Assembly (NCBI GenBank): GCA_963082975.1
Contig: OY720345.1
Span: 57,084,528-57,148,527 of the forward strand
Source of the DNA: Labia minor
Lineage: Eukaryota > Arthropoda > Insecta > Dermaptera > Spongiphoridae
Length of the DNA: 64,000 bases
Direction of reading: 5' to 3'
The notes below the pieces were generated by a model, which was not told the DNA's origin, searched no databases, and worked only from the letters and a program-made list of their open reading frames with translations. The translations under genes and the position numbers were made by a program. This document shows positions 9,295 to 62,424 of the stretch, in pieces (the first letter of the stretch is position 1; each line of letters opens with the position of its first letter).

Positions 9295-11203
9295 TTAAAA
9301 CGTAGGTCCAGAAATTAAACCTAGATCAACTAAGTTAATAATTGAATCTGCAATTATTTTTGCAGATTTTTTAGAATATCCTCCACTAGTAAGCATAACA
9401 ATTGGGATTCGTCTTTCTCTTGCTTTCATAAAAACCAATTCATCTCTTCTAATTACTCCCTAAAACAATAATAAAATATATTAAAATTTTTATTTTACTT
9501 TCACAAGTAATTTTGCGCATTAATTAAATTAAAAAAATATATCCTTATGAGAAATATAAAAAAATAAAAAGTTAAAAATTTTTAAATATAATTTATATTA
9601 TAATTCATTTAAACTCTTGAAAAGGGTTGCTTTTAATAGATTATATATCTATTAAATTTTGTATTCTTTCTGAGAATGAGTAAATTTTTCTATTGGAAAA
9701 AATAAGTTTTTAGCTTAGTTGTCTATTAATCTATAAATAATTTTCGCTGTTTGTTTTAGAAAGTTTTAATCATTTTGAGAAATAAATAACCATTAATAAT
9801 ATTATTATTATTATAAATTTGAATATGTGTGTGTGATCTTTATTTTATTTAATAATATTTAAAGCTTACAAATAAATGACATCACCTTTATATTGTTTTT
9901 AAATAAATATATTATAATTATTATTTTTGAAGTAAAAAAATAAATAATTTTTTTAAAATTAATATAAAAATAAAAATAATAACAGATTAATATTTAATTG
10001 TATTAAATGAAATAAAATTACTTCAGGTGAAATATCCATGAGCCCAAGAATATCGCCTTTAAGTATGTCAGTGCCTGCATTGTATACGATTAAATCTGGG
10101 TGAAATTCTCTCAATCCTTCTTCAAGCATGCTAATTAAATATTTTATTTTAAAAAAATGTCGATTAATTTAAATTAATTTTAATAAGAAACCTTTCTACA
10201 ATTTCAAGGTATTCTTCATCTTGTACATGGAAAGGCATTTCATATCCTTTATTTATTCGTTTTTTAGCTATTTTGTCATTAGGATAAATTCCTCCATTAT
10301 ATATATCTATTATATATACATTAGATATATTAATAAAATCTCTTTCATGGCCGTTTCCCTAGAATTGTGGTTTAAAATAATTTTTCATTATTTTATAAAA
10401 AAAAATATGTATAACCTGATGTGCATCTAAATCAACTATCATTGCTTTTTTTATTTGACAAATTTCATCATTTAGTAGAAATGTTATTAACAATGTTATG
10501 TCTGCATAAGGACAAAATCCCCCTCCTTTATCTGCACGACAATGGTGAAAGCCCCCTCCTATATTTATAGACCATCCTCTTTGAATTGCTAATTTTCCTG
10601 CTAAAATACTACCTCCAACTTGATACCTAAAACAAATTAATTTATAAGTTCAAATCTTTTACTAATAATTTAGTAAATTAATTATTACCTCATTGGTTTC
10701 AAATAACAAGACTGAACAATAGAATTTGGAAGACAAGCTAATAATGGAATTTCAGCAATTAATGCGACATTCCAGCTCCACTAAAATTTTGATAACTGAG
10801 TTCTTTTAGAAAAATGAGATATCAAAGAATTTTACTCACTCTTAGAGAATTAAGATATCTTTGGGTATGAACAACTTTTAAGTCATCTTTGGAGGCCTTG
10901 TTAGGCTTTACAATATTTGTTTCTATAATTAAGTTTTTATCTTTAAGAATCTAAAATAATTTCTCTTATCAATAAATTAGTGTTTTCAAAAATATAATTC
11001 AATCACCAATAAACCTTAAAAATATGCTTCCATTTTGATGCATCAAAGGGATGCAGCTTTTCAATTCCCATAAAATGAACATTATATTCATTTCTATATA
11101 TAATTGGCCATTTATCCCTTTCTACATTGATATATAGTTGGGTTTGTTTAATTTCATTAACAGGGGTAACAGCTGATCGTTTTTTATTTATCCAGCCTCC
11201 CAT
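9295..11203 (-). CDS. HDAC11: Histone deacetylase 11 (class IV; acyl-lysine hydrolase)
   Basis: Exons in coding order: 11203-11015, 10950-10840, 10780-10689, 10626-10416, 10358-10192, 10130-10022, 9459-9295. They join to 347 residues, like animal HDAC11. Landmarks: YNVHFMGIEKLHPFDASKW near the N-terminus, GGGFHHC with the active-site histidine pair at 158-159, DLDAHQGNGHERD with zinc ligands Asp198 and His200, YNAGTD with the third ligand Asp278, and SGGY with Tyr321. HDAC11 is a zinc enzyme that removes acetyl and, more efficiently, long-chain acyl groups from lysine. All key residues are intact. An AATAAA on the minus strand lies at 9175-9170. The gene is head-to-head with CCT2. Confidence 0.97.
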
Positions 11204-11650: not shown

Positions 11651-12681
11651 ATGGTACTATATTTAATTCATATTTTAATTTCTATATAATAAAGTATATA
11701 TTAAAGGTTATGTCTTTGTTTTAACAATTAAAATTCATATCTAAAAAATTGAGTTTATTATGTTTCTATTTAATAAAACGATAATATTGATTATTTAGGT
11801 GTCACTAAATCCAGTACGCATTTTAAAACATGAGGCAGAAGAAGATAAAGCTGAAACTGCACGTTTATCAAGTTTTATTGGAGCCATAGCAATTGGTGAT
11901 TTAATTAAAAGTACACTTGGTCCCAAAGGAATGGATAAAATTTTAATATCTACTGGAAGAAATGCCGGACAAGTAGAAATCACAAATGATGGAGCTACAA
12001 TTTTGAAATCAATTGGTGTAGACAATCCAGCAGCCAAAATTTTGGTGGATATGTCAAGGGTACAAGATGCCGAAGTTGGCGATGGAACAACTTCTGTTAC
12101 CGTATTAGGTATTACTTAGTATCTTAAAAATTTTTATTCAACTCAAAATTTCTTTCTCAAATAAATTATTTTATTATATAAATTAAATAATAATTTAAAT
12201 TTTTTCAATAATTAAAAAACATTTGAATCATTTATAATGTATTTATATTTCAACTAAATGATTTTTGACAAGTAATTGGTCAGATATATTTGCTTAAAAA
12301 TCAAAAAAGAGTGAAATTATTACAATATACTTACTAAAATAAATATTAACGTAAACCTTCATTATTATGAATTAATTTTAATTTTAATTATTTTTTTAAA
12401 TTTTCATATATATAATAAAATTGATCCAAATGATTTTAAAAATCTAAATCTATTATATTTTTTTATTATTAAAAAAAGTTATAAATTTTAATTTAATATC
12501 ACAACTATAAAATATTAAAAGTAAGTTAGATAAAATTAAATATTAAACATTTTAAATCCAATAGTTGAATTCTTTGAGAAAAATTAAAAATTAAATTAAC
12601 GAAATTGCCGTATTTTCCAGGATAATTATTTCTAAAATTTTGGCTTTAAGGGATCTAATTATTAAGTCCTTTTGTAACATT

Positions 12682-12712
<31 letters not shown>

Positions 12713-14546
12713 CGTATATATATATTTTAGCTGCTGAACTTTTAAGAGAAGCTGAATCTCTTATTGATAAAAAACTTCACCCACAAACTATTATTTCTGG
12801 TTGGAGAAAAGCTACTCAGGTAGCAAGAGATGCTTTAACCAATTCTTCACAAGATAATAGCAACGATGAAGCAAAATTTCTTGAAGATTTAATGAATATA
12901 GCAAGAACTACACTTAGTTCTAAAATTCTCTCTCAGCATAAAGAATTTTTTGCAAAACTTGCAGTGGATGCCATTAAAAGATTGAAAGGCTCTGGAAATT
13001 TAAGTGCTATTCAGATAATTAAAAAAACAGGTGGAACTTTAGAAGATTCATTTTTAGATGAAGGTAATATCTTTACTATTATTTTTTGCTTTATAATTTA
13101 AAAAGCCTCGCCTATTTTTTTTTAAAGGATTTTTATTAGATAAAAAAATTGGAATACACCAACCCAAAAAAATAGAGAATGCAAAGATTCTTATTGCTAA
13201 CACTCCTATGGATACTGACAAAATCAAAGTTTTTGGATCAAGAATTAGGGTGGATTCAGTAGCAAAGATTGCAGAATTGGAAACTGCAGAAAAGGAAAAA
13301 ATGAAAGATAAAGTTTCAAAAATTTTAAAACATAATGTAAATGTATTTATCAACCGACAACTTATATATAATTATCCAGAACAATTATTTGCTGATGCTG
13401 GTGTAATGGCTATCGAACACGCAGATTTCGACGGGATTGAACGCTTGGCTTTAGTAACAGGTGGAGAAATTGTTTCCACTTTTGATCATCCTGAGCTTGT
13501 TAAATTGGGCCATTGTGATGTTATTGAACAGGTACTTGAAAATATTTATTGTTAATTATAAAAAACAAGTTTGCTAATTTAAATTGTTTTTTTTTTTGTT
13601 ATTTTGTCAAAATTGATAAATGATTTAACTGATTAAATTTAATTCTTAATTCTTATTTAGATTATGATTGGAGAAGACACTCTTCTACGATTTGGAGGTG
13701 TTGCACTTGGTGAAGCGTGTACTATTGTTATTAGAGGGGCTACTCAACAAATTCTAGATGAAGCTGAACGATCCCTTCATGATGCTTTGTGTGTTTTAGC
13801 TTCAACTGTCCGTGAAACTAGTATTGTTTATGGTGGAGGTATAAATCAATATATTTTATTTTTTCAATTATTCTCCAAAATTTAAAAAAAAATGTATTTT
13901 TAAGGTTCTAGTGAGATGCTTATGGCTTGTGCTGTCTTAGAAGAAGCAACGAAAACTCCAGGGAAAGAGGCAGTAGCTATGGAATCATTTGCTAAAGCAC
14001 TAACAATGTTGCCTACTATTATTGCAGACAATGCTGGTTATGATTCAGCACAACTTATCAGTGAGCTTAGAGCTTTACAGACTCAAGGCAAAAAGACAAT
14101 GGGTTTGAGTAAGTTAAACAAGAATTATAATTTTAAATATAATTTTTTTTTATTTTAATTCATATATTCAACTGATTAATTTATATTTTTTTAATTTTAC
14201 ATTATATTTTATTTAAAAATCAACTCTTTTTTCAGAACTTTCATCTAGGTAGTTTTTTCCTTGATATATATATAATTAGATAAATATCTCTTTCAAATAT
14301 AACTATATTATATTATTTTTTTTTATTTTAAATTATAATAAAATATATAATTTAAATAATATGTTTATTTTAGATATGGATGAAGGCAAGATTGAATGCA
14401 TGAAACGAAATGGTATTACAGAATCTTATGTTGTCAAAAGACAAGTACTTATGTCAGCTGTTGAAGCTGCAGAAATGATTTTGAGAGTAGATAACATTTT
14501 GAAAGCTGCCCCAAGAAAACGAGTTGAAGATCGTGGACATTGCTAA
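11651..14546 (+). CDS. CCT2: T-complex protein 1 subunit beta (CCT/TRiC chaperonin)
   Basis: Exons: 11651-11653, 11799-12108, 12731-13063, 13128-13531, 13661-13838, 13905-14108, 14374-14546. They join to 534 residues, against 535 in human. The first coding exon would be only the ATG, followed by a GTACTA donor; this gives the N-terminus MVSLNPVRI, which fits insect CCT2. That micro-exon is the least certain part. Landmarks: [21 protein letters not shown] and [10 protein letters not shown] (95-104) for ATP binding and hydrolysis, [35 protein letters not shown]-type apical segments, and the C-terminus [15 protein letters not shown]2 is one of eight paralogous subunits of the cytosolic chaperonin that folds actin, tubulin and WD40 proteins. 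AATAAA is at 14678-14683. Confidence 0.97.
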
Positions 14547-20494: not shown

Positions 20495-21930
20495 GACTGA
20501 GGACTGGGAATGACCCTGGTGGTCCATCATTCAACGGAACTTCATTTTCGGAACTCGAAAGTTCTTGTCAGCAGCAACCACACTTCTCCAAGTATTCGTA
20601 TCCTGAGCCACAACCCACCAATCCCTACCCTCTCCCATCTCTCTCACGTCAATTCCTACATTGTCTACCCATCAAGCAGGCGTCATCGCAGCCTTCTCGA
20701 TTTTTATAACGTTTTTCTTAACTTCACTTGGCGTCTGTCTCTGTCTCTCTATCTGTCTGTTCGCTCTTTTGACAAATTGAAATCGATTTTTCATCGACTT
20801 TTTATCGAGATAGACTTGAAAATTTCTAGAGATATTTCAATGGATCCCTAGAAGGTATAGAAGAAATATAATTGAATTATAATTAATTAATTAGCGATTA
20901 ATTACTTTTAGTAACTAACTCCTTTTGTATTGCTCCGATTAATTTTTTTCAACCGATTTTGAAACATAAGTATTGATTTCAGAATAGATTTTCATTTTGA
21001 ATGTATTTAAATTATTCAATAATAACATTTACTTAACATAAATGCATAAAATGAATTTTGGAAGATTAATATATTTTTTTGTTTTATTCAATTTGTAAAT
21101 TTTCGTATAACTTCACCTTTTCTATTTTTCTTGTTATATTATATAAATTCATCATATGAAAATTGCACTAAAAAGAATAAAATAATATAAATATAAAATT
21201 TTTTTATAAAATAACGTTTTTCAAATGGACTAAAAAGAATAAAATAATTTTTCTTTAAGCCTGACAAAGTTTATGGATGAATTGCTTCAAATTCAACGAA
21301 AATCGTTGGGCGCATTTAGTTCTATGCAATTAACTTCCTTTATAGAGCTATAATTCATATATATATATACTAAGATACAAAACACTTAATTAACAAGTAA
21401 CACTATTTCTTCAAATATAATCAACCATTTTGGATTTGATTGATAATATGTAAATTTAATAAAAATTCTTTTAAATTTTGATGCATACTTTGATATAAGT
21501 ATATATTACAGTGAAAAATAATAAAAGATTAATTTCTTAGCTCTTAAATTATCAATTTTATTGCATGATAAAAAAATTTGTCAATTTATGTGTTTAATAA
21601 CATTTTTATTATTACAAAAATTTGACTTGATTGTTCATATAAATAAATTAAACTAAATGCGCCCAACGTTTTTAGTTGAATATGAAGCAATTCATCCATG
21701 AAAAATTATTTTATTCTTTTTAGTTCATTGGAAAAACGTTATTTTATAAAAAATTTTTATATTTATATATAATCCTAACTATATTTAGAGATGCATAGAG
21801 GTCATGCAATTCCTCGTTATGCAGTCTTCGCCATTCCCCAGTGACCTCATCATTCTTTGGCCCAGAAATGCTGCGAAGAATCCTATTCTCAAATACTCAA
21901 AATCTACTCTCGTTTCCCAGGGTCCTGCCT
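20495..21930 (-). mobile_element. Non-LTR retrotransposon remnant interrupted by about 1.1 kb
   Basis: 20495-20710 and 21785-21930 match successive parts of the element at 1420-2400 (minus strand): the second piece encodes the degraded equivalents of RVFENRIL and LHNEELHDLY, and the first lies further 3'. About 20711-21784 is an insertion that contains a large inverted repeat. Confidence 0.7.
21189..21768. repeat. Large imperfect inverted repeat (fold-back)
   Basis: Arms of about 120-130 bp lie at 21189-21320 and 21651-21768, separated by about 330 bp. The left arm contains AATAACGTTTTTC, ACTAAAAAGAATAAAATAA, TGGATGAATTGCTTC and GTTGGGCGCATTTAGTT; the right arm has their complements in reverse order. 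The left arm has an extra block of about 20 bp. This could be the terminal repeats of a TIR element inserted in the retrotransposon. Confidence 0.7.
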
Positions 21931-23198: not shown

Positions 23199-24200
23199 AA
23201 ATAACCATTAACTAACACAGACTTTTATGATTACATTTTTTAATATTTATATATATTTAATAATTTTTAATCTAAAATTATATTTTTCTCTCGGTTTCAA
23301 CATATTTGAAGTTTCTAATTTCTTGAATAAATAATCACTAACAAAATGACAATCCATCACGATTTTATATATTTTTAATTATTTCTTTTTCATATATATT
23401 TTCAATTGATTTTTTACTTTCCAAGTTTATATAAAGAAAATATTTAAGATATTTAAATAATAAAAAATACAATGATATCAAAAATGTTTTTTTACATTAA
23501 ATATGATTCGATTTAATTTTTTTTATAATAAAAACTATTTTAATTGTGTTTTTGTATTTTAAATAAGAAAAGGATCAATAAAAGACAAGTTTTTTAATAC
23601 TAAAAAATTATTATTTTTTTGGTAACTAATTTGAATGTTTATTATTTCTTTTATCTAATTTTTATGAAAATTTATTTATTCAGATTATTTAAGTTTATAA
23701 AAAGGATTTCAAATATTTTATTATATATTAATTTAAAATTAAATGATAAATTTAGATGATTATATATAAGACCTTGAATCCAATAAAATAAATATATATG
23801 ACCCCTTTTATTCAATATTAATTGATTGATTTATTTTCAAATCAAAAACTTTTTAATTCTAAGTTTTTATTCATTTAATTTTAATAAAAAACTATTCAAA
23901 ACACTTATATTTTATTGATTTATATATAAATATAAATAAAAATAGTTATTGTTTTTTTCCCGGGGCAAATCGTCCGTCTCCGGTTCATTTCGACTATCTT
24001 CGTTTTCACTTCCAATTTCATGACTTAATTATTTATTAAAAAATATTGTCCAGTATTCTTCAGTCTCAAAAGTATACAATAACATTACTATTATATTTAG
24101 GAATTAGATAATTTTGCTAATCTTTTATATTAAATTTTAAACATTAAAATTATAAGTTAAATTATTATAAAGTATAGTTAAAAATTCGATTTCTATAAAA
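23199..24200. other. Upstream region of SUCLA2
   Basis: AT-rich. A short GC-richer island at about 23958-24010 (CCCGGGGCAAATCG onward) may mark the promoter. No specific site is supported. Confidence 0.4.
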
Positions 24201-27200
24201 TGGCAACTTTTTTAAGAAATGTCTCATTATTGGAAAATGCAGTCTTTAAAATTTATCGACCTGTAAGTAATTTATTAAATTTTAAAACATTTTATTTTTA
24301 ACAATTCTTTAATATATATTTACGTCAAATAAAATGTGATTATTTATATTTACTTGTATAATATTTAATAGCAAGTTACATAAACATTTTTAAAAATATT
24401 GTGAAAATTCTAAATTTAATTATTTACTTATTATTAATTATTTTTTGTATAATATATTTTTTCTAGCTCTTAACCCAACAACCTAGAAGAAATCTTAATG
24501 TTCACGAACATATTAGCTATGCTTTGCTGAAAGAAGGGAATCTTCCAACTCCAAATTTCGGAGTTGCGACAAGTAGTCAACAAGCAACAGAAATAGCCAA
24601 AAGTTTGAATACTAAAGATATTGTTGTTAAAGCTCAAGTGTTAGCTGGAGGTCGTGGAAAGGGCACCTTTAAAAATGGCTTTAAAGGCGGTGTCCAAATG
24701 GTGAAAACGTAAGATTTAATTTAAATCAATTTAACATGATTATTTCCAACAAGATAATAGTTTCATTATTCTATTTATAACCAAAAGGATGTTAATAATT
24801 TTTTCTTAGTTTGAATTCTTAGCAACTTATTTTTAAATAATTATTCATTATTTTGAAATTTTTTTTAATATTATATCTATTTGATCTAGATTATTTTTGA
24901 TTTTTATGATATCAATTTTAAACAAATTTATAAATTAGTTTTTGGAAAATTTTATTAACCTAAGATGATGAAAATTTTTTTGCATAGGATAAAATAAAAT
25001 ATACTAATGTGATATATAAATACAAATATATATTTAATTTAAATTCTGCATTCTGGATTACTCTTATGTCAAATTGACAATATGACAACTCTAAAAAATA
25101 TATAAAACTAAATTCTTGTTAAAAACTCTGAATTAATTTAAATTTTGGGAAATTATACCCTATTATTTAACTATTTTAATGTAATGTATAATATAAAATT
25201 TAAAAAAAAATAGAATGAAAAAAATGAAGTTATTTTTCTTCAATTTTTTCAACATATTTAATTACCTCTATTCTCACATCTCATCTTTCTATGACGTATC
25301 CTATTAACTTTTATTTCAATTGAACTTCGATTAGAAAATTTAAATAATTCCTATTAATAGAATTTTATCTCATTCATTTTTTTTATTTAAATAAAAGTAT
25401 GAATCATAAACAATTATTATTATTACATAATAATAATAAAAAAATGATGTTAAATAATTTTTATCTAGGTTCTAAGCTATATCCCAGATTCTAAGCTATA
25501 TCTATCTATATTTATCTAGATTCTAAGCTATATCAACTATTTTAGTTGGGCCTGGATATTTTGAAATATTTTTATCCCAGAAAAAACTGATATACCTTAA
25601 TAATTTTCTCTCACAAAGTAATATGATATAAACAGGCATACGGGATTTGTTTTCAAAAATCAATTGGAAAAAAAATATTTACAGTCTTGAACCAGTTTTT
25701 AAAGTTTGTTTCATGAATTTATTCTTTCTAAAAAGATTTTTTAATGTAAGGTTGTCCTTTTGCAGCCAGGACCTTGATCATTGCTATAAAGCAATGCTAT
25801 ATAATTTATGTTCATATGGTTTTTTTATTTTATTTTTTTTAAATATAGTCCCGAAGAAGCTTCTGAAGCTGCTTCCAAAATGATCGGGCAATTGCTTGTT
25901 ACAAAGCAAACAGGAGAAGCTGGAAGAATTTGCAATAAGGTCATGATTACTGAACGTAAGATGCCAAAAAAAGAATATTATATAGCAATTATGATGGAAA
26001 GAGCATTCCAGGTATAGATATGTTTTTAACTATTCATTTATTACTTATTATACTATAATAAAATTATATTTTTTTAAAAAAAAATTTTAGGGACCTGTAA
26101 TAATTGCTTCTTCTCAAGGTGGTGTTAATATCGAAGATGTTGCTGCTAAAGATCCTAATGCCATCATTTATGAACCTATAAATGTTTTAAAAGGTATAAT
26201 ATTTATTAAGATTCTCACAAGTATATATTTTATAATAATTATTAGTTAGCATTAATTGTTACCTTCTTACAATTTTTGTAAAGCTCTAAAATCTCAAAAA
26301 AGATTATAATTAAAATGAAATATTTAACTAAATAAAAAACATTATTTAGTAACAAAACAAATGTTTATTTTTTAAATTTAATATTTTAAAATAGTTTTAA
26401 TTCAAATTTTAAAAATCTTTATACCTTTTTTTCTACATAGGCCTATCAAAGGAGCAAGCAGCACAAGTAACGAAAAAAATTGGACTGGGAGATAATAAAG
26501 ATATGATTGATAATATTATGAATCTATATAAATTATTCCAAGATAAAGATGCTACATTAATTGAAGTTAATCCATTTGCTCAAGATGAGGCTGGGAAATG
26601 TAAGAATGAAATATAATCGAATCATCTCTTTTTACAACAACTTTACCAATATTTTAATCATTGAAATTCATTTTTCCTATTTTATATTTTCAATGATAGA
26701 TTCGGCTTTAAGCATGGTTTTTATATGTATTGATTATTAATTACATTTAAAATTGGGTTCATTAATCTAATGACTAATATTATTCATTAATCGATAATAA
26801 AAATTAGAATAACGATACAAAAATAATTTATGTTTGAATAATTGTTATGACTAAACAAATAATTATTCAAGTCGATGATCATTAATTATATAAGATTCCT
26901 ATATTCTCACATTATTCATTGCATCTATATTTTATTATTGTTATAGACATCATCTCTGTTATCATAATGTATATTTTTTAATTTATTTATTACTTTTAAT
27001 AAATTAATTCTTATTTTACGCAAAGAAAGTTAATACTTCATCACATATATTTATCTAATTTATTTACATTGTAGTTTTTGCCCTTGATTGTAAAATGAGA
27101 TTCGATGACAATGCTGCATTCCGACAAAAAGAATTATTTAAACTTCGAGATTGGACTCAAGAAGATCCTAAAGAAGTTCAAGCTTCTAAATTTGATTTGA

Positions 27201-29799
27201 ATTACGTAGCTCTTGATGGTTTGAATTGTTTTATCTTCAAATTAGTATATTAAAATAATATATTATATTATTGTTTTAAAATATTTTAGGAAATATTGGT
27301 TGCATGGTTAATGGAGCCGGTTTAGCTATGGCTACCATGGATCTTATTAAATATCATGGAGGGAACCCAGCTAATTTCCTTGATGTTGGAGGTGGAGCTA
27401 CCAAACAGCAGGTATATAATTAATAATAAAAATTTTATTCCATAGAATAATATTTTTTAAATTATTTAACTAATATCTATAATCATATAACTGATATTCT
27501 CTTAAATGGCTGGACAATTGAATATAATATAAACAAACCTTATTTTTATTTTGTTTTATTTCAATACTGGTTGTCTACCAATTTTTTTGAAATATAATTT
27601 ATCATTTATTATTATTTTTAATTCTTGAATCATTTACAAAATTAACAATAATATAAAATCATTGATTATTTGAGAGCAAATATATCATATAAATTAGTAT
27701 ATACTAAGTTTAAAAATTATAATAAGTATATTTTTTTATTTTCATTTTTTTAATAATTCTTTTAGGTTAAAGAAGCTTTTAAAATTATTACAGCAGATCC
27801 CAAAGTTCATGCTATTTTGGTAAATATTTTTGGAGGAATTATGCGATGTGATATTATTGCAGAAGGCATTATTGATGCTGCTCATGAGCTTAATATCAAA
27901 GTTCCTATTGTGGCGAGATTATTAGTAAGAAAAATTATCATTTTTTAAAAATCCACATTAAAACTTAAACTTATAATTATAATTTTATAAATTAATTTTT
28001 TGAAATTTGTAATTTTTAAATATAATTTCAATATTCTGACTGAATCAATTAGTAAACTTTACTTATAAGTTTACAAATCTTGAAATTTTTAATATAATTA
28101 CTTTTAATGAACAATTTTAAATATCCATTTACATACTTATATTAAAACATATACAAAACTTTACATACACACACATCTATATAAGATAAAAATATAAAAT
28201 TTAATTCAATATATAAAAACATTTTTATATATAAGATGAGAAATACTTATCACTTGCCAATGTAGGGTTCCATGGTCGACGAAGCCAAAGTTTTGGTTGC
28301 ATCTTCTGGAATGAAGATCCTCGCCTGTGACAGCTTAGATGAAGCAGCTCGACTCGCCTGTAAAATTTCTACTATCGTCGGAATCGCTCGAAAAGAAAAA
28401 CTTGACGTCCACTTTGAAATTCCCATTTAGGCACGACGTTTTGGTTTAATTGTTTAGTTGAAATAATTTTGAATTGTTTGTCATTTATTTATTTCTATTT
28501 TCTTGTTTCATTAAATTAGTAATTTATTTAATTAATGACTAAAAAATGACAATAAGTTCAAAATTATATTATAAATGTTGCATCAACATTCCTATCAACT
28601 TTTCAGTTTTTGTTGGCGTCTGGGGTTTTTTCTATTTATTTTCTTAATTTGTTTCTCTATTCTTAATTTGCACTTCTCTTCTTTGGTTTTCATCCAGCTT
28701 TGGTTGTTCCACTTGGTTGTTGCCTGTTGGTTCTCTATTATGTTCTATTTTGTATTTGTTATTTTTTTGTTCTTCATCTTTTTATATATTTTGTGTTTGT
28801 CTATATACCTTATTTAAAACATTTTCATCGCATTTCACAATTGTTCTTTTGTTTCTTCCGCATATAACATTTTTATTTACATTTTATTTTTATTTACATC
28901 GATGACACTATATTAACATACACAAATATTAATATACTCTCATGGAATGGTAAATTATTTTTTGTTTTTGGAATGATATGTAAACTTTACTTTATAATTA
29001 TTATTATTAAATATATCATTTATAATAGTACTAATATTAAATACATTTTTACATACAATTTAAATTATCCAAGCATTTATTCATTTATTTAATTAATATT
29101 ACTATTACGATTTTTCTATTAATTAAGGATTAAGGGATTTTCCCCATATTTACTATTATCTCACAATTAACTTATAATTTTACATTTATACTATTCATTT
29201 ACACAATTCTTCTAATCTAATTGAATTTTATTTAAATTTTAATTTAATTTACTTGATTGTTTAAGTAATTTAAAATTTATACCTAACATTGGGTTGATAA
29301 GTCTATTTGAGCATTTGAAACACCTTTTAGAATATATTCTCTTTTATAAATATATATATGTATATATTATATTATATATACATATATATATATATTAATT
29401 TTTCATGTTAAAAGATATTATCAGTTGTTAAAACAATTATAACCATTTAATTAAATTTTATTTAATTTTAATAATTAATTAATTCAAATTATTTTTTAAT
29501 TTTTCTATTTCACCAATTTTCACCGTTTTTAAATGAATAATTAAAATTAATTCTGTTATTAGCTATCAACATCCAAAATATTCAATTTTATATTTGTTAT
29601 ATCATTTATTTAATCTTAACATGAAAAATTAATTTTTAATTTCATTAATAGAAAATTTTTTTAATATTAATTTTCTATTTTACAGGGGAATAAAGTTGAA
29701 GAAGCAAAACAAATGATTGATAAAGCTAAACTTAAATTGGTAATGCAAAATGATCTCGATTCTGCTGCAAAAGAGATTGTTAAACTTTCCAAACATTGA
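24201..29799 (+). CDS. SUCLA2: Succinyl-CoA ligase [ADP-forming] beta subunit, mitochondrial
   Basis: Exons: 24201-24262, 24467-24708, 25849-26011, 26091-26193, 26441-26599, 27075-27218, 27290-27411, 27766-27924, then either 28266-28430 or 29686-29799. Protein of about 439 residues with the first ending. It catalyses the ATP-forming step of the TCA cycle (succinyl-CoA to succinate) together with SUCLG1 in the mitochondrial matrix. Landmarks: [28 protein letters not shown] and [19 protein letters not shown] (ATP-grasp), then [18 protein letters not shown] and [17 protein letters not shown] (CoA-ligase domain). The body is of the ADP type (SUCLA2) rather than SUCLG2. In exon 1 the ATG frame hits TAA after four codons; one extra T in the T-run at 24209-24213 would open a good mitochondrial leader ([15 protein letters not shown]). 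The exon 1 to 2 junction demands that shifted frame. AATAAA is at 30068-30073. Confidence 0.95.
28266..28430 (+). CDS. SUCLA2: SUCLA2 alternative terminal exon A (full-length C-terminus)
   Basis: It follows a TGTAG acceptor in phase 0 and encodes 54 residues: [35 protein letters not shown], ending [10 protein letters not shown] and TAG. This matches the usual SUCLA2 end (ACDDLDEAARMVVKLS ... DVKFQLPI). Its codons use C and G at third positions much more often than any other exon of the gene, so it stands out from the AT-rich background. A long AT-rich stretch without features (28431-29685) follows before exon B. Confidence 0.85.
   Translation, partial: GSMVDEAKVLVASSGMKILACDSLDEAARLACKISTIVGIARKEKLDVHFEIPI
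28431..29685. other. 3' UTR or intron between the two SUCLA2 terminal exons
   Basis: For the exon A transcript this is the 3' flank; for exon B it is intron. It contains pyrimidine-rich sequence (28575-28900) whose hydrophobic open frames look like chance, and a TA-rich palindrome at about 29348-29396. No clear AATAAA follows exon A closely. Confidence 0.5.
29686..29799 (+). CDS. SUCLA2: SUCLA2 alternative terminal exon B (short C-terminus)
   Basis: It follows a TTTTACAG acceptor in phase 0, the same phase as exon A. It encodes 37 residues: [37 protein letters not shown], then TGA. It aligns with the first two thirds of exon A and stops where GTP-type (SUCLG2) subunits stop, without the last 17 residues. 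Its AT-rich codons match the rest of the gene. Confidence 0.85.
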   Translation, partial: GNKVEEAKQMIDKAKLKLVMQNDLDSAAKEIVKLSKH

Positions 29800-30209
29800 A
29801 CATTCAAATTTATTCTGAATCTATTAAAGATTTTTTTCTAAATAATTAAATTATTTTATAATTATTTTATTTCTAGAAAACTATATCTTCTAGTCGCATT
29901 TTTTTAGACTAGTGAATTTTTCTCATTATTTATTTCACTTTATTTATTATAACATTTTAGTCTACAAAATTCATATATAATTAATTTTATGCCATTTATC
30001 AAAATTATAAGTATTTTTAAGTATATTAAAAATTATATAAATTTATTATTGTTGTATTTGAATTAATAATAAAAATATATATTTATTTTATCAAATTGTA
30101 TTTTGGTAAATGATTTTCCCTTTTTTTGTATTTCTTCGATTTCATTTTCTATTCAAAAAGCTTTTCATAATTATTTATAACTTTCTCTTTTAGTAAATAA
30201 ATCTATTTA

Positions 30210-30775
30210 TCTCTGTGCTGGCAACAATCACAACCACTCCAATCGTCCATCCAACTTTACGACATGGATTACATTGTCCATCCATGGTGTTCTTGGTCTA
30301 CCAACGAGTCGCTTCCCAATCGGTCTTCCAACAAACAAGTCTTCTCTCCCATACTAACTACATGTCCCGCTTATCGCAACCTTCTCGATATTATGGCCAT
30401 TTGGAGATACATATTGGTCATTCATTTCCTCGTTATGCACTCTCAATTCCCTGATGATTTCATCATTCTTAGGCCTAAATGCTATGAAGAATCATATTTT
30501 AAAATACTCTTAAATATATTTTCGTCTTCCAGTCAGTCCATACCTAATATTACATACAAAATATATCCCTTTACTGCATGATAACAGGCATTACCCGATT
30601 GCATTCTCCAATATTATCCTTCGTGATTATAAAACCTAAGTATTTAAATTTTTATAGGCTTTGTACATGAAGATTTTGTCTATTGATTTTAAACTTGTGA
30701 TACTAAATATTTTGTCTTAATAGTATTAATTTCGATAAAAATCTCTGCGCCTTTTTTTATACGCTTTTTATTGAA
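30210..30775 (-). mobile_element. Non-LTR retrotransposon remnant
   Basis: Its minus strand matches 1500-2320: the GGTTTTATAATCACRAAGGA segment (KYLGFIITKD) and the KTKYLVSQ-like stretch near 30700-30730 are recognisable. It has many stops and lies just after SUCLA2. Confidence 0.75.
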
Positions 30776-33861: not shown

Positions 33862-48623
<14,762 letters not shown>

Positions 48624-60299: not shown

Positions 60300-61135
60300 A
60301 TAAAGTGCTACTTCCGGTTAACTGATATTTTAAATGTAAAAAAAAACAGATATGGATATAATATAAATATTTTATTTATAATATATAAGGGCTGACTGTG
60401 ACGTCATGAAGTGCTGGGTGACGTCATATAATTTTAAATTAAGAAAAAACTAATGAAGATGATTTTTCTCGAGGATAAAACCAATACAAAGTGCATAACA
60501 CGTGGAGATATGTCCTCACGTGAAATTTGATATGAAAATAACCCTTCACTTCCTCTCTTCGATCGGCAATACTAGCACTTCCGGTTTCCGGATTTGCACC
60601 AAAAGTTGATCAATTCATCCTACTGATGTATTAAGTAAATATACCAAATTTCATCAAAATCCGTTGAGCCGTTCAGGCTGTACACATCTATAAGGACGGA
60701 CGGATGGACAGACATCATGCTAAAAATACTTTTTTCTGTTAAGAAAATGCATGATTCGTGGAGATATGTACCTAAAAATATCCATAGGTGAAATTTGGTG
60801 TGAAAACAATACCTCCCTTACTATAGTCGGTCGGTAAAAAAGAAACGCTACTTGTATAGGTAAAATGTCACTTCCGGTAGTCAGATCATGATGAAATTTG
60901 GTATCTCAAGTTTTTTCATATTTTTAAATCTATATACAAAATATGAAGCAAATATCTCGGAGCAAACTGGTACTTTACTTGAAAGGTAAACGCAACCAGT
61001 GTAGGTAAAGTACCACTTCCGGTTAACCGATTTTGACCAAATTTTGATAGAAATCTACAAACTGTGAATAATATCGGTGTACCAAATTTCGAAGTCCTAG
61101 CTTGATTAGTTTTTGAGTAAATTTGCTTACAGACA

Positions 61136-61166
<31 letters not shown>

Positions 61167-61336
61167 CATACACACACACAGACATAATTCGAAAAATGGT
61201 ATTTTCCGACTCAGGGAGGTCTAAAACGTCAAGATCTATCGAAATCTCGAAGTCGAAATTTTTGACGATTCCAATACTTCCCTTATACGAAGTATGCGGG
61301 AAAGTAATTATACGAAGTATGCGGGAAAGTAAAAAT
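60300..61336 (-). mobile_element. Family C/B composite HINE, copy 2
   Basis: A reversed, near-identical copy of 46452-47487. The family B portion spans about 60339-60835 (its start ACCGACCGACTATAG is the complement of 60821-60835). The 5' end of C is at the right, where its last 27 bp or so (TATACGAAGTATGCGGGAAAGT) are duplicated in tandem. The 3' hairpin is replaced by other sequence at the left end. The 143-residue open frame here (60916-61347) is not a gene. Confidence 0.8.
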
Positions 61337-62424
61337 GATATTACCATAGGTTCAAAATAGAAATGAGACCATTTTCCTTATTATCAATCTATTCTAACTT
61401 ATTCTAATTTATGGACTGTGATTCTAACCCTTCCTTAACAAATTATTTGATTATTTTTTTATAAATAAAAATGAATAGAAGGATTTTAAAACGACGTTCT
61501 ATTTCCAAATTCCACTGATTTACAGTGAACATAGTAATAATAAAATTTAAATAGTTTATATTTTCTATATTATGACTAAATTATCATTTGAAAGATATTT
61601 TGAAATTTGATAAACCTCTTATTAATTTATTTAATATAATCTAAAAAAAAAAATAATTTCTAGAATACAAGTTAAATTAATATAATATTTCAATAATTAG
61701 TTTTCGTGTCCTTATGTCATCCAATGATGTTCAAAATATAATATTATTAGTTTAATGTATATTATAAAACAGTTTGTTAATATATTATATAAAAGTTAAT
61801 TAATAATAATACGAAAAAATTATATTACAATTTCATTATAAGAGTTAATGAAAATCTTTAGATAAAAGTAGAGATATTTTATAAAATTAAAATTATTCTA
61901 TTATAAGTGAAAATTTAATTAAACTTTTACATAATTAACTTGTTGTTGAAACCCTTAAACATTATAGAATTCCCCAGGTTTGAAAAGTTTTCTGTTTGTC
62001 TAGTCTCTTTGTTTATTTAATGTTTTCCACTCCAAAATGTCTTTGTATCATCGTGTCGCGTCCCTGACCATCTTACTCTTTCTGTTTTAATTAACCTTCT
62101 AATATTGGTTCATAGACGAATTCATGTAATATGATACTTATGAATTTTACTTTAAGTAGTCCTTTTCAACTTTTTAGTTCTCGTTTAGATTCGCTAAAAG
62201 TGTATTTTATTTTTTGCCAAATGTACAATAAAATAATTCTTTAAAATCTGGAGTTTGATTGTTTATCATTTGATTGATGAATTTTGAAAGAGTACACAAA
62301 GAAAATAAATAAATTTATCAAACATCCAAAAAATTACTTATAAAACATATAATTAAACAATTATATTTCTCATTTGTTTGGTAATTATACCTATATATAA
62401 AAATATTATACTTAGTGATTTTAC

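Follow-up and report, generated by a model that had tools for sequence, protein, structure and literature searches.

A second terminal exon in the SUCLA2 gene of Labia minor could yield two proteins with different ends

The SUCLA2 gene of the dermapteran Labia minor raises the question of whether a single enzyme subunit can be made with either of two C-terminal ends. The gene lies on the plus strand at 24200–29799 of the analysed window (the whole stretch of 64,000 nucleotides), and its last common exon is followed by two exons, each of which could close the reading frame. The explanation that we regard as probable from the sequence is that the terminal exon was duplicated and that its copies act as alternative last exons, which would provide SUCLA2 with or without a 17-residue extension. 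SUCLA2 is a core subunit of the TCA cycle; a gene that keeps two homologous ends, of which one alone carries the SUCLA2-specific extension, would offer a natural test of the role of that extension, and also of whether animals tune a TCA-cycle enzyme through the choice of a last exon. In humans, subunit defects of the enzyme to which SUCLA2 belongs lead to mitochondrial encephalomyopathy (PMC10342173).

The eight shared exons, all on the plus strand, join into an open frame of 1155 bases and 385 residues, with GT donors at all eight and AG acceptors at exons 2 to 8. Exon 1 (24200–24262) provides the start codon, an open frame that encodes a putative mitochondrial presequence, and the donor gtaagtaa; exon 2 (24467–24708) holds the beginning of the alignment to human SUCLA2, at residue 29. 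Exons 3 (25849–26011), 4 (26091–26193), 5 (26441–26599), 6 (27075–27218) and 7 (27290–27411) are each defined by alignment to protein data bank (PDB) sequences and an open frame. Exon 8 (27766–27924), the last exon in common, ends in phase 0 at the donor gtaagaaa. Over residues 29–439 the predicted long form is most similar in the PDB to ADP-forming beta subunits, namely 9swj (E 6.7e-164) and human SUCLA2, 6g4q (E 1.8e-163), with the best GDP-forming beta subunit behind them (E 2.4e-116), so that the full-length search places the gene with SUCLA2 over SUCLG2. The entry 9swj, whose species we infer, is near-identical to 6g4q in the alignments shown.

From the single donor at 27924, a phase-0 join is possible to either of two terminal exons on the plus strand. 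The proximal exon (28266–28430) has the acceptor ...aatgtag and the stop codon TAG, and encodes a tail of 54 residues that includes the SUCLA2-type extension; the distal exon (29686–29799) has the acceptor ...tttacag and the stop codon TGA, and encodes 37 residues. The locus thus has the structure of alternative last exons, in that one donor is in phase with two terminal exons, each of which has its own acceptor and stop; in this extra terminal exon with a short end it differs from SUCLA2 as described in the open-licence papers listed. The first-pass annotation had proposed two rival terminal exons leading to different C-termini, which is still the best reading of the sequence; on re-reading, its coordinates, frames and splice dinucleotides for both exons were correct, and the short form that it described without the 17-residue extension is recovered in the predicted proteins, at 422 residues with the short tail and 439 with the long one. 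Its description of the tails as stoichiometric is unsupported.

The long tail has the features expected of a SUCLA2 end. On its own it has a PDB match with an E value of 1.6e-14, and it is identical to human SUCLA2 at 31 of 54 positions, matched through the last residue. An SG pair and an ILACD run are common to the long and human tails and are missing from the short tail, and only the long form has the extension, which ends in PI just as that of human SUCLA2 does. The base composition of the long exon is unusual and unexplained: 23 of its 55 third codon positions are G or C, as against 82 of 385 in the shared exons (Fisher p 0.002), and the resulting value of 0.418 is higher than in any of 331 equally long core stretches (maximum 0.382). 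In this respect the short exon, with 7 of 38, resembles the core (p 0.84).

The short tail is recognizably SUCLA2-like as well. When it is compared on its own with 177635 distinct PDB sequences, the top match is human SUCLA2, in register, with an E value of 0.0026 for the whole sequence but only 0.07 for the best single stretch; the next different protein follows at E 0.24. Its BLOSUM62 score is 80 against human SUCLA2, 59 against the long tail and 45 against the SUCLG2 of the same genome, and when the short tail is shuffled 5000 times, the real score is not reached against any of the three. The homology of the two tails, asserted by the first-pass annotation, is borne out by these shuffles and by a tblastn search within the window, which pairs the tails at E 3e-4 with the short query and 7e-4 with the long one. 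That annotation had also likened the end of the short form to that of GTP-type subunits. The likeness stands for length, since SUCLG2 and bacterial SucC stop at about the same point as the short tail (counted from one and the same glycine, the genome's own SUCLG2 has 36 residues left and the short tail 37); it fails for sequence, which is of the SUCLA2 type. On these comparisons the short tail represents a SUCLA2 end that has diverged and lacks the extension, rather than one taken over from the GTP type.

Of the profile models, two favour the short tail and two, slightly, the long one. Joined to exon 8, the short tail scores above the long one on the SucC model NF001913 (106.7 versus 98.0 bits, reaching positions 386 and 384, respectively, of 388) and on TIGR01016 (94.5 versus 88.8 bits), and NF010647 slightly favours the long tail (90.1 versus 88.1 bits). 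On the Pfam Ligase_CoA family PF00549, for which the cut-off is 24.5 bits, both combinations are well above threshold, with 68.5 bits to position 125 of 128 for the long tail and 67.0 bits to position 127 for the short; searched alone, neither tail matched a Pfam family. Because both forms reach such scores, the CoA-ligase domain is complete in each, and the short form would lack the extension only. The ATP-grasp domain and a segment of 11 residues in exon 8 (letters not shown) are encoded by shared exons, so the fold and nucleotide specificity should be kept in both forms. Judging from the position of the change, the forms most likely differ in stability, assembly or the contacts of the C-terminal domain with partners, for example in pairing with SUCLG1, and perhaps also in tissue-specific control through their 3′ UTRs.

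The divergence of the two exons suggests that the duplication is old, and the 36 positions compared are too few to date it. At the DNA level the alignment of the exons is no better than that of shuffled sequence (211 of 500 shuffles are equally good); over 37 codons they differ at 22 first, 16 second and 26 third positions, and 8 of the 12 residues identical between the tails are encoded by different codons. Across the first 36 positions, identity to human SUCLA2 is 23/36 for the long tail and 16/36 for the short, with 12/36 between the tails; a single residue is common to both tails against human SUCLA2. Homologous proteins encoded by DNA at shuffle level, with differing codons, fit selection on both copies after saturation of silent sites, and both exons are probably under selection. 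In the genome's own SUCLG2, a name that we gave by eye, the last intron apparently occupies a near-identical position, one base later, and the terminal exon is therefore probably an old module. Traces of duplicated flanks were sought by comparing 27925–28700 with 28701–30300, each of which includes one of the exons. On the plus strand the score of 51 exceeds that of every one of 30 shuffles (whose best is 48 and mean 37), and the reversed comparison gives 48 (best shuffle 52); we consider this marginal plus-strand signal unconvincing.

Could the short exon be a decaying relic of the duplication, open by accident, with the long exon alone in use? The closer resemblance of the long tail to human SUCLA2, over its whole length and over the compared start, would fit this, as would the loss from the short tail of residues that the long and human tails have in common. 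An open frame of 37 codons is itself weak evidence for the short exon: the local base composition gives it a 4.7% chance, and such a run follows 2 of 33 AGs nearby and 204 of 2579 across the window, which makes it a 5–8% event here. However, a neutral relic whose DNA similarity has fallen to shuffle level should also have lost its protein register, its acceptor and the position of its stop, and the short tail surpasses the long one on NF001913 and about equals it on Pfam. Register, profile fit, and acceptor and stop together make a relic unlikely. In the converse arrangement this lineage would mainly use the short exon, and the long exon, with its weak acceptor, would serve a minor or stage-specific form. 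This reading draws on the splice-site scores and on the stretch from the long stop codon to the short exon, which lacks AATAAA though it does contain five ATTAAA. It is decidedly improbable, given that the long tail follows human SUCLA2 through its last residue and that, when this stretch is simulated 1000 times with a first-order model, 14.2% of the simulated sequences are likewise free of AATAAA.

It is highly improbable, in our view, that the short exon is never spliced to this gene and is instead an artefact of the assembly or what is left of another SUCLA2 gene since lost. The sequence does rest on one assembly. Nevertheless, the two exons are too diverged for haplotypes or a recent misassembly, and when the protein of this gene was run by tblastn with a limit of E 20, the interval from 28430 to 29686 gave nothing apart from a chance match of five residues (E 15). 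SUCLA2-type exons, moreover, occur at this locus alone among the best-scoring candidates of a search of 604 Mb in 71 contigs, in which no second SUCLA2 locus was found. As that search scores best candidates only, its match numbers are not absolute counts. Of its 15 matches to the long-form protein, eight fall in this gene and six in SUCLG2, which lies on a different contig; the remaining one has E 8.8. The short exon was not among them, and an equally diverged tail elsewhere would likewise escape it. Each tail has a single DNA match in the genome, and the short tail a single protein match, again among the best candidates. Six matches to PF00549 mark four loci, to which we gave by eye the names SUCLA2, SUCLG2, SUCLG1 and ACLY. 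Since these searches of best candidates gave one SUCLA2-type locus and a single DNA match for each tail, recent capture of a tail from a paralogue is rejected.

Alternative last exons resulting from an old duplication of the SUCLA2 terminal exon thus remain the preferred reading. Splicing of 27924 to 28266 with proximal cleavage would produce the complete SUCLA2 end, 17-residue extension included. Skipping of the proximal exon, splicing to 29686 and use of a distal poly(A) site would produce a short-ended SUCLA2 in which the CoA-ligase domain is complete and the extension absent. Expression of both forms, a mechanism of choice and a functional difference are what we infer from this arrangement. 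Alternative last exons are a known kind of arrangement and also arise by exon duplication; the SUCLA2 case is apparently undescribed in the open-licence literature, where no account of a short-ended or dual-ended SUCLA2 appears among the matches listed. Gene-prediction pipelines may already carry such isoforms.

By an acceptor matrix built from only 7 constitutive sites (leave-one-out range −0.4 to 7.6), the short exon scores 4.1 and the long exon 1.7, both within the constitutive range; among the AGs of the window the short acceptor ranks above 91% and the long above 81%, neither of them outstanding. A candidate distal poly(A) signal, by motif match, is the AATAAA at 30068–30073 (plus strand), the first after the short exon; ATTAAA occurs sooner, from 29823. 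The 1255 bases between the tails contain no AATAAA, and the first of their ATTAAA is at 28510. Equal-length stretches free of AATAAA number 33 of 1255 on the plus strand of the window and 9 of 1255 on the minus strand. Selection against early poly(A) signals was considered and dropped, as the T-rich composition of the inter-tail stretch may account for the absence.

Between the two exons, the plus strand carries a pyrimidine-rich tract (28589–28878), U-rich in the transcript, which is a candidate regulatory element and hints at a regulated choice of the last exon. At 72.8% pyrimidine it is the top 290-base stretch of the window, the length having been picked after the sequence was seen; the next separate peak is at 67.6%, none is as purine-rich, and the tract occurs only once in the window. 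It contains five UUUNUUU, which we take to be an ELAV-like motif, a mild enrichment: 540 of 6371 stretches on the plus strand and 645 of 6371 on the minus strand have at least as many. Four TTGGTT also lie in the tract, with starts between 28683 and 28727.

According to PMC8055025, ELAV/Hu proteins in Drosophila favour the distal last exon: acting through U-rich sequence downstream, they suppress the proximal poly(A) site. The neuronal last exons treated there form a proximal and distal pair with a U-rich stretch after the proximal one, as here; in SUCLA2, however, the last exons are homologous copies. An ancient regulated switch of this kind, in which an ELAV/Hu-type protein bound to the U-rich tract would suppress the proximal end in tissues such as neurons, leaving SUCLA2 there without its extension and the TCA-cycle enzyme altered in assembly or in stability, is a doubtful elaboration of the preferred reading. 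Paired intronic elements were set aside as evidence: 27900–29850 contains 37 inverted-repeat pairs, mostly AT-rich among the 25 listed. One pair joins the long exon (28345–28366) to the acceptor of the short exon (29677–29698) at 77%.

Outside the animal genome, no relatives were found in viral contigs scanned with the long tail and with exon 8 plus the long tail, and no Rfam family matched the window at gathering thresholds. Among genome contigs scanned with the long tail, one locus was recovered, on a rumen MAG contig, where the reading frame identifies a bacterial succinyl-CoA synthetase beta gene. In the window itself, a dispersed repeat lies at 30200–30600, downstream of the short exon, with similar sequence at 21783–21920 and 37696–37887 (copies 72–82% identical) and short matches to the same family at 1522–1555 and 1667–1718. 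Two long open frames, at 46431–46829 (plus strand) and 60916–61377 (minus strand), are near-alike and apparently copies of one repeat element. By eye, the neighbouring frames presumably belong to an HDAC11-like gene (10359–10649, minus strand), a CCT2-like gene for chaperonin beta (11799–13555, plus strand) and a PLC-beta-like gene (34009–35679, minus strand).
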